The translations under genes and the position numbers were made by a program. From Clostridia bacterium (GTDB taxonomy: Bacteria > Bacillota > DUOV01 > Zhaonellaceae), in contig DUOV01000133.1 in the NCBI GenBank assembly GCA_012838615.1, positions 1 to 34,900 on the forward strand: 34,900 bases of DNA, given 5' to 3'. The number at the start of each line of letters is the position of its first letter. Positions within the stretch are counted from its first letter, which is position 1. The notes beneath the pieces were generated by a model, which was not told the origin of the DNA, made no database searches, and worked only from the letters and a program-made list of their open reading frames with translations. Positions 24,445 to 27,437 of this stretch are shown piece by piece.

Positions 24445-24660
24445 TTATAAAGCTTCAATCCCAATCACCTTATAACCTACTTCATTAATCGCAGTTTTAA
24501 GCTCTTCATCTTTTACTTCACCAGTAGCTTCTAGGATAGCATACTTACCATCTAGGTTTACATCTACGTTAGTTACACCGTTAAATTCACTTAAGGCTTC
24601 TTTTACATGGTTAACACAATGTCCACAACTCATTCCTTCAATTAAGACTTTCTTTTTCAT
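24445..24660 (-). CDS. copZ: Copper chaperone (HMA domain)
   Basis: A 71-aa single heavy-metal-associated domain with the metal-binding GMSCGHC motif (Cys12, Cys15) and the ferredoxin-like fold pattern. CopZ carries Cu(I) in the cytoplasm to CopA and exchanges it with CsoR. It lies 33 nt downstream of copA with a GAGGAGGG ribosome site. Here the CxxC is encoded normally, in contrast to the first HMA domain of CopA. Confidence 0.93.
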   Translation of the reverse strand: MKKKVLIEGMSCGHCVNHVKEALSEFNGVTNVDVNLDGKYAILEATGEVKDEELKTAINEVGYKVIGIEAL

Positions 24661-24693: not shown

Positions 24694-27141
24694 TTATACA
24701 ACTGGCTTAAAATTTCTTAGTCTTAAAGCATTGGTCAGTACTGATACAGAACTTAAACTCATGGCGGCGGCTGCAATCATAGGGTTTAAAAGTGGTCCGC
24801 CGAACAGGTAAAGGATACCCATTGCCACAGGTATACCTAAGGTGTTATACCCAAAGGCCCAAAATAGATTTTCCTTGATATTTTTAATGGTGCTTTTACT
24901 CAGCTGGATAGCAATAGGTACATCCATTAAATCGCTACGCATCAGGACTATGTCTGCAGATTCCATGGCCACATCTGTGCCCGAGCCAATAGCTATACCA
25001 ATATCAGCTTGGGCTAGAGCGGGAGCGTCGTTAATACCATCGCCAACCATAGCAACCTTCTTACCCTCATCCTGCAGTTTCTTAACCTCATTAGCTTTGT
25101 CTTGGGGTAGCACTTCAGCTAAAGTTCTGTCTATGCCTACCTGCTTAGCTATAGCCTCCGCAGTTCTTCTATTATCTCCGGTGATCATTACTACTTCAAT
25201 GCCCAGCTTATGCAAGGTCTCTATAGCTTTCTTACTGTTTTCTTTTACGGTATCAGCAACTGCAATGATTCCTGCGAGTTTTCCATCTATAGCCACATAC
25301 ATTGGGGTCTTGCCCTCTTCCGCCAGCCTATTTGACGTTTTTTCAAAGTCTTCCAAAGATACCTGGCGGTCTACCATCAGTTTTTTATTACCTAGTAAAA
25401 TATTTTTCTCATCAATCTTTACTTCAATGCCATGACCTGGAATAGCTTTAAAATCAGCAAGCTTGATAAAATCTACTCCTTTTTCTTCAGCCTCTTTGAC
25501 AATCGCCTCACCCAAGGGGTGTTCAGAGCCTTTTTCAGCTGAAGCGGCTAACCGAAGTAATTCATTTTCCGTTATTATCTCAGAAGCAACTATATCTGTA
25601 ACCTTTGGCTTACCTTCTGTAATAGTTCCTGTTTTATCAAACACTATTGTATCTATTCTATGGGCTGTTTCCAAAGCAGTTCCGCTTTTAATTAATACAC
25701 CATGTTCTGCTCCTTTGCCGGTACCAACCATAATAGCCGTAGGTGTTGCAAGTCCAAGGGCACAAGGGCAAGCGATTACTAAAACAGAAATAAATATAGT
25801 AAGTGAAAATACTGCCGATTCTTTACCTATTAAATACCAGGCTAAACCTGACAGAATAGCCAAAGCTATAACAATAGGTACAAAATAACCCGAGATAACA
25901 TCAGCCAGTTTGGCTATCGGTGCTTTAGAACCTTGGGCCTCCTCCACGAGTTTTATAATTTGGGCAAGGGTTGTATCTTTACCGACCTTGGTAGCTTTAA
26001 ACTTAATCGTGCCGTTTTTATTAATGCTAGCGCCAATGATTTTATCGCCCACATTTTTTTCAACAGGAATGCTTTCACCGGTCAGCATTGATTCGTCTAC
26101 TGAGGTAGAGCCTTCAATTACTTCCCCATCCACAGGTATTTTTTCTCCCGGTTTGACTAAAATTACATCTCCCACTTCAACTTCATCTATATTGATTTCT
26201 ATTTCTTTTCCGTCCTTAATAACTGTGGCTGTTTTGGGGGCCAGACCCATCAGTCTCTTAATGGCTTCAGAGGTTTTCCCTTTGGACACAGCTTCCAGAT
26301 ATTTACCTAAGGTGATTAAAGTTATAATAGTTGCCGCTGATTCGAAGTACAAGTCCATTACATAGCCGGTATTACCTTTAAGAATCTGGATGGTGGCAAA
26401 TATGCCGTACAGAACAGCAGCTGACGTACCTATGGCAATTAGGGAATCCATATTGGGACTGCCTTTAAAGAGAGTTTTAAAGCCTACTGTATAAAACTTA
26501 TAACCCATTACTACCACAGGTATTGTAAGAAACAGTTGGGTCAAGGCAAAAACAGAGGGGTTTACCATAGGATCAAATAAACGAGGCAAGGGCAGACCTA
26601 TCATATGCCCCATGGCTATATATAGGAGGGGAACTGTAAAAATGGCAGATATAATAAACCTTTCCCACAAAATTTTTATCTCCCGATCTTTTTTCTCCTT
26701 GTCTGTATCTACTTGGGTTTCTTCTTCAACTGCTTTATAGCCTGCTTTTTCTACTGCCTGCTTGATGGTAGAAAGCCTTACTTGCGCCGGCTCGAAACTA
26801 ACCGTGAGTTTCTCGGTAGCCAAATTCACATTGACATCACCTATACCATTGAGCTTGCTTACAGCCCTCTCTACAGCTTTAGCACAGGCAGCACAGGTCA
26901 TGCCTTCTATTTTAAGAGTTTTAAGGGCGGTATCATCTACTGCCTTATATCCTGCTTTCTCTACCGCCTCATAGATGTTCTCAACAGAAACTTTGGACTC
27001 ATCAAAGCTTACGCCTAATTTTTTAGTAGCCAGGTTAACATTAGCCTCTTGTACACCATCAAGCTTGCTTACAGCCCGTTCCACGGCCCTAGCGCAAGCA
27101 GCTCAGGTCATGCCTTCAATCTTTATCAATTTATTAGCCAT
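24694..27141 (-). CDS. copA: Copper-exporting P1B-type ATPase with in-frame TGA in its first CxxC
   Basis: This 815-codon gene encodes a Cu(I) export ATPase of the inner membrane. Order: HMA1 (1-70), HMA2 with GMTCAAC (80-86), eight membrane helices, TGES (354-357), the CPC metal site (458-460), DKTGT phosphorylation site (502-506), and GDGINDAP. The true start is ATG 27141, since GAGGAGG lies 7 nt upstream. From there the frame reads [12 protein letters not shown], then TGA (27103-27105), then [11 protein letters not shown]. The TGA is precisely at the first Cys of HMA1's CxxC. It may encode selenocysteine or be a nonsense mutation; without read-through, a start at 27084 (no good ribosome site) would give a protein with only HMA2 intact. 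It is controlled by CsoR. Confidence 0.88.
27063..27099 (-). promoter_or_regulatory. Candidate SECIS-like hairpin after the copA TGA
   Basis: Minus strand GCTTGC (27099-27094) pairs with GCAAGC (27068-27063). Inside, AGG-CCG pairs with CGG-CT around a TGGAA loop, with a G-G mismatch. The loop is about 20 nt after the TGA and contains GG, consistent with bacterial SECIS placement. The identical-protein region of HMA2 (26846-26905) lacks this pairing. Confidence 0.45.
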
Positions 27142-27170
27142 CTAACTTCCTCCTCAAAAGCAAAAGTTGC

Positions 27171-27437
27171 TTATTTATCCGCTATTCTCCCTAGAATTCC
27201 TATTATTTCGTCGACTTTTTCGCTTCCGTTTCCCTGTTTAAAAGCTTCTTTGACACAGTGATTCATATGCTGCTTTAAAATCAATAAGTTAGCTCTTTTA
27301 AGAAGGGATTGGGCAGCCATTATTTGGTTTGATACATCTATACAGTATCTTCCTTCCTCAATCATTTTAACTGTTGCCTCAATTTGGCCCTTAGCTGTAA
27401 GTAAAGCCTGAACAGCCTGTCTTTTTTGTTCATTCAT
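27171..27437 (-). CDS. csoR: Copper-sensing repressor
   Basis: An 88-aa all-helical DUF156-family repressor. The Cu(I) ligands of CsoR are in place with the exact family spacing: Cys32 (GRYCIDV), His57 and Cys61 (LKQHMNHCV). Cu(I) binding releases DNA and derepresses the operon. It is the first gene of csoR-copA-copZ-SHOCT; its own operator lies in the 5' region, giving autoregulation. The spacer to copA is 29 nt. Confidence 0.94.
   Translation of the reverse strand: MNEQKRQAVQALLTAKGQIEATVKMIEEGRYCIDVSNQIMAAQSLLKRANLLILKQHMNHCVKEAFKQGNGSEKVDEIIGILGRIADK

Follow-up and report, generated by a model that had tools for sequence, protein, structure and literature searches.

Does an in-frame TGA close to the start of a copper pump gene specify selenocysteine (Sec), or has it broken the gene? 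The locus that raises this question is copA, located at positions 24694-27141 on the minus strand of the 34,900-nucleotide stretch of Clostridia bacterium DNA analysed here (the window). It extends from an ATG at 27141 to a TAA stop at 24694 and, by direct reading, contains a single TGA, at codon 13 (27103-27105, minus strand), and no other stop after that codon; with the TGA read as Sec, it would encode a P1B-type Cu(I) ATPase of 815 amino acids with two HMA domains (TIGR01511, PF00122, PF00702 and two matches to PF00403). The assignment to the copper-type pumps is based on TIGR01511 (646.7 bits, cut-off 397); the heavy-metal P-type ATPase model TIGR01525 scores 690 bits, and the protein carries the DKTGT and CPC motifs and an N-terminal HMA. 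The neighbouring genes give a copper operon context: upstream of copA, in the same direction and probably in the same operon, is a gene for a CsoR/RicR-type copper-sensing repressor (27171-27437, minus strand; PF02583 83.6 bits, NF052430 RicR below its cut-off), and downstream is a copZ-like gene for a stand-alone HMA metallochaperone in the Cys form, GMSCGHC (24457-24660, minus strand; PF00403 56.6 bits, NF047957 CopZ 68.8 bits, which is below its cut-off).

An earlier note on this DNA had placed the TGA on the first Cys of the GMTCxxC motif of HMA1, downstream of a GAGGAGG site and an ATG, and had claimed that HMA2 keeps a Cys codon at the equivalent place, that the two copies differ after this codon mostly at third positions, and that a hairpin with a GG-containing loop lies about 20 nt past the TGA; direct reading bears out all four points. 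The ribosome-binding site GAGGAGG (27149-27155, minus strand) lies 7 nt upstream of the ATG. HMA1 (26944-27126, minus strand; PF00403 66.0 bits, above the cut-off, with one TGA inside) has the motif GMT-U-AAC, i.e. U13-A-A-C16, and is the proposed Sec-Cys metal site, whereas HMA2 (26734-26919, minus strand; PF00403 80.5 bits, no stop) has the ordinary Cys-Cys motif GMTCAAC. Residues 6-68 of HMA1 match solved HMA chains of CopA and CopZ, and position 13 aligns with the Cys that opens their CxxC copper site; in a PF00403 profile search HMA1 is the sole HMA with an internal stop in this genome. Over the 25 nt past TGA/TGT the two copies differ at 8 bases, five of them third positions, two in one Arg/Lys codon (AGG/AAA) and one a synonymous first position of Arg (CGG/AGG); the 16 nt that follow, GGGCTGTAAGCAAGCT, are identical in HMA1 and HMA2.

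The genome, a 222-contig draft of 2.55 Mb that is 95% complete, holds all four genes of the Sec-decoding machinery, selA, selB, selC and selD, which the earlier note had proposed to look for. In a profile search, selB (SelB 375.9 bits, cut-off 242) adjoins selA directly downstream; a tRNA-Sec (selC) with anticodon TCA is present; and SelD scores 397.5 bits, its own gene containing an in-frame TGA. Four other genes with an in-frame TGA were found in the genome, namely this selD and three fdhA genes with one TGA each in the context HCARL-U-H followed by hairpins with GG-containing loops, and in all four the TGA is at a known Sec position.

The SECIS-like hairpin itself is located exactly where the earlier note had drawn it, at 27063-27099 on the minus strand, corresponding to bases 4-40 past the TGA. 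Its lower stem comprises 6 bp with a pair probability of 0.91, and its top adopts two near-equal forms, with a GGA loop 20 nt past the UGA or with the larger loop GUGGAACG. The published bSECIS rules call for a loop of 3-9 nt, an upper stem of 4-16 bp, a G as the first or second base of the loop, a distance of 16-37 nt from the UGA and an MFE of <= -7.5 kcal/mol; the copA hairpin conforms to them, the best fit having an MFE of -18.9 kcal/mol with the loop GTGGAACG 18 nt past the UGA, and the GGA loop at 20 nt fits too. When the peptide was recoded synonymously 2000 times, the HMA1 hairpin proved more stable than 98.9% of the versions (P = 0.011 for MFE, P = 0.0115 for a SECIS-shaped hairpin), and in the same test the HMA2 copy is unremarkable (P = 0.40 and P = 0.15, respectively). 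Against dinucleotide shuffles the HMA1 hairpin is nothing special (z -0.98); we prefer synonymous recoding as the control because the segment encodes a conserved peptide. Searching the region against Rfam gave a chance snoRNA match and nothing from a SECIS family. With P ~0.011 for a single locus, the hairpin is moderate evidence.

For many loci, hairpins 15-30 nt past the codon with G as the first or second base of the loop were likewise compared with synonymous recodings. Among 47 TGA-HMAs the mean z is -1.60 and 45% reach P<=0.05; the corresponding values are -0.25 and 7% for 29 Cys HMAs of the same genes and -0.07 and 4% for 48 Cys HMAs of relatives. The difference between TGA-HMAs and Cys HMAs of the same genes (Mann-Whitney p=4.5e-6), as well as that in conformity with the bSECIS rules (32/47 TGA-HMAs, window copA among them, versus 13/77 Cys-HMAs, p=1.1e-8), carries p-values that are optimistic because related sequences are not independent. 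Clearly, SECIS-like structure tracks the TGA and not the HMA peptide. The distance of the loop from the UGA differs among lineages.

How widespread is a TGA at this position? We scanned one genome per species, ~85,000 species in all, for exact matches at the DNA level to GMT-TGA-A-[A/S]-C-[A/V] and sorted them by eye on their translations. The 78 records comprise 39 other CopA genes, in which HMA homology spans the TGA on both sides, five small HMA proteins and 34 chance matches. The TGA-CopA genes are found mostly in Clostridia, then in Candidatus Aquicultor and other Actinomycetota, in one Chloroflexota and in Candidatus Aegiribacteria; they include cultured strains (Tepidibacter formicigenes, Caloranaerobacter azorensis, Clostridium punense, Romboutsia sedimentorum and Maledivibacter halophilus) and the complete chromosome of Oceanirhabdus sp. 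W0125-5. Within 399 genomes of the window's phylum, six have a TGA-HMA. In these 399 genomes, 6/7 matches with TGA at the first Cys are real HMAs, and 0/4 matches with TGA at the second Cys are, the latter being a matched control since TGA there is equally one step from TGY. SelB scores above its cut-off in 43/46 TGA-HMA genomes, the exceptions being one genome that is 81% complete (G110) and two MAGs (G399 and G403), compared with 14/33 chance-match genomes (Fisher p=6.6e-7) and 139/200 genomes of the phylum (p=2.8e-4); given that selB is so common in this phylum, its presence by itself is weak evidence.

T. formicigenes DSM 15518 has two distinct TGA-HMA genes in one cultured genome (L096 and L108), one with GMTUAAC in the first HMA seen and the other with GMTUASC in its second HMA. 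The five small HMA/MerP-like proteins, in which TGA takes the place of the first Cys in GMTUxxC, come from Betaproteobacteria (L078, L138), Planctomycetota (L118, L132) and Akkermansiaceae (L113); all five genomes have selB above the cut-off, and we regard these proteins as candidate HMA selenoproteins. Stand-alone CopZ-like HMA genes with an in-frame TGA in the motifs GMTUMHC and GMTUNHC were seen in two genera of one family, L045 (in G145) and L046 (in G110) on the minus strand near copA and, in addition, L056 and L057; these CopZ-like genes, the small GMTUxHC proteins L056 and L057 among them, do not pass the SECIS-rule test, and G110 is the 81% complete genome without selB above the cut-off.

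The earlier note had suggested a comparison with relatives. The same TGA recurs in the 39 other CopA records, and the closest CopA relatives, L025 (79% identical) and L026 (76%), have TGT at the position of codon 13; the genome set that we searched yielded no member of the same genus. Because L025 and L026 have TGT, it is independent recurrence elsewhere, rather than any sister genome, that supports Sec. A 58-row tree built from the ATPase core without the HMA domains places window copA in a clade of eight genes (SH-aLRT 99) in which the nearest gene, L025, is all-Cys, L026-L028 are Cys, and three Clostridiaceae genes (L087, L091, which is the Oceanirhabdus gene, and L130) have Sec in HMA2 and not in HMA1. 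The Sec/Cys label changes at least 12 times on this tree, five of the changes being forced by well-supported branches, and each gene inspected has Sec in just one HMA, which may be the first or the second, and never in both. The changes on the core tree together with the placement in HMA1 or HMA2 indicate that Sec is often gained or lost and moves between the two domains. Judged from these sequences, Sec in window copA is lineage-specific and not conserved locally, which is what one expects if Sec arises from Cys where Sec decoding is already in place (PMC1794560). The identical 16-nt run in HMA1 and HMA2 (both within 26734-27126) could stem from gene conversion between the domains, and such conversion might be a route by which Sec moves from one to the other. 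Separately, the hairpin in the Cys HMA1 of L025 is SECIS-like but weak (P=0.033, -5.2 kcal/mol); it may be the remnant of a former Sec site or a product of chance.

Combining the machinery of the genome, the conformity of the hairpin with the SECIS rules and the recurrence in 39 other CopA records, we suggest that the TGA is very probably a selenocysteine codon at which SelB-mediated insertion yields a full-length Cu(I) ATPase with a Sec-Cys site in HMA1, as the earlier note had proposed. The strongest competitor is a nonsense mutation from TGT to TGA in HMA1, with the pump surviving by downstream re-initiation, e.g. at GTG 27084, and having one working HMA. TGA is indeed one step from the TGT of L025 and L026, a 796-amino-acid frame opens at GTG 27084, and N-terminal HMAs of P1B ATPases are often dispensable for transport. 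However, GTG 27084 lacks a well-spaced ribosome-binding site, whereas the upstream ATG keeps a near-perfect one, and HMA1, as far as codon comparison tells, is not eroded, although amino-acid changes relative to L025 are somewhat more numerous in HMA1 (26 codons) than in HMA2 (19 codons), which counts against the Sec reading. Moreover, the TGA lies exactly on the metal-binding Cys, as in the 39 other CopA records, and is followed by a hairpin that is missing from HMA2; TGA at the second Cys, equally reachable by mutation, was not found in HMAs of the 399 phylum genomes; and instead of the varied stop positions that decay would leave, the other CopA records share the same TGA codon. We therefore consider a nonsense mutation improbable; TGA-CopA looks like a real, under-annotated family and not a broken gene.

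Less probable still is an error of sequencing or assembly hiding a true TGT or TGC. The sequence is a 222-contig draft of a single isolate, but a random error would not be expected to fall just ahead of a SECIS-like hairpin, in a genome that decodes Sec, and at a codon that recurs as TGA in a family which includes the complete Oceanirhabdus chromosome. That the TGA is read as another amino acid (e.g. Trp), by genome-wide reassignment or as a leaky stop, has a negligible probability: TGA is a rare stop (0/26 window genes, 10/123 long ORFs from ~198 kb of the genome), but because ordinary long ORFs do end in TGA it is not reassigned in this genome, and genome-wide reassignment is rejected on stop-codon use, while no window gene besides copA has an internal TGA, fdhA and selD have TGA at known Sec positions, and Trp would destroy the CxxC ligand. 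As an aside, some of the 10 TGA-ended long ORFs (in the stretches L149-L160) could end at unrecognised Sec codons.

The TGA codon and where it lies, the hairpin, the Sec-decoding genes and the recurrence are read from the sequences; from them we infer how the Sec codon would operate. SelB loaded with Sec-tRNA(Sec) would bind the hairpin at 27099-27063 and place Sec at residue 13. The product would be a full-length P1B ATPase that exports Cu(I), with a UxxC (Sec-Cys) site in HMA1 and a Cys-Cys site in HMA2, the CPC transport site in the membrane remaining Cys. In the HMA CxxC motifs of CopA, CopZ and ATP7B, Cu(I) is bound by the two cysteines, and in HMA1 the Sec selenolate would replace one of them as a Cu(I) ligand. 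This domain may take Cu(I) from the adjacent CopZ-like chaperone or, alternatively, tune the activity of the pump. Because the UGA is codon 13, synthesis of the full-length pump from this start should depend on the supply of selenium. Sec has served as a probe of Cu(I) ligands in engineered copper chaperones (Barry et al. 2008, cited in PMC6235853). A bolder proposal, which we regard as speculative and rather unlikely, is that Sec in one of the two N-terminal HMAs of CopA is a repeatedly evolved design, a Sec-Cys site beside a Cys-Cys site that moves between HMA1 and HMA2, by which selenium supply gates synthesis of the copper exporter; if true, the early UGA ties copper defence to selenium status.

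Most selenoproteins of known function are redox enzymes, and Sec in place of a metal-ligand residue in a copper pump raises the question of the role of selenium in binding rather than catalysis. The recurrence of TGA-CopA, including in cultured strains, makes the family testable. Gene prediction that takes every TGA for a stop would place the start of such genes too far downstream and thereby lose part of the Sec-bearing HMA.

Several known or predicted systems resemble the window gene. The closest is the predicted selenoprotein family 'cation-transporting ATPase E1-E2, UxxC' of Zhang and Gladyshev, with ABB15669.1 as an example (PMC2398784, PMC9312934, PMC13188914). As described in these reviews, it is a P1B ATPase (COG2217/TIGR01525) with Sec in UxxC, and window CopA, a heavy-metal P-type ATPase by TIGR01525 with U13-A-A-C16, fits this description; it differs in the organism, and the family is called rare in the literature, the marine GOS survey containing a single Sec sequence beside 882 Cys homologues, in contrast to the 39 further CopA records in our scan. 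In the literature accessible to us through open access, a search for a characterised Sec-containing CopA returned only predictions. The UxxU metal-binding (seleno)protein of the NCBIfam model NF041115, formerly 'putative mercuric reductase', likewise has an HMA fold in which Sec replaces a metal-binding Cys. A review describes it, however, as small and containing two Sec (UxxU), whereas window CopA would have one Sec in a full ATPase; despite a score above the cut-off (109.9 bits summed over the two HMAs), we do not assign window CopA, with UxxC in an 815-residue ATPase, to this family. MerP and mercuric transport selenoproteins are HMA or mercury-transport proteins with predicted Sec, but they belong to mercury resistance and are not Cu ATPases. 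HMA1 also aligns with CopA of Bacillus subtilis (PDB 2rml, 1p6t) and with CopZ (2qif, 1k0v), which have Cys where Sec is proposed here. Thus, the window gene joins an already predicted and barely studied kind of selenoprotein that was listed before from very few sequences, to which the present analysis adds the breadth of occurrence, matched controls, statistics on the SECIS-like hairpins and the observation that Sec switches between HMA1 and HMA2.
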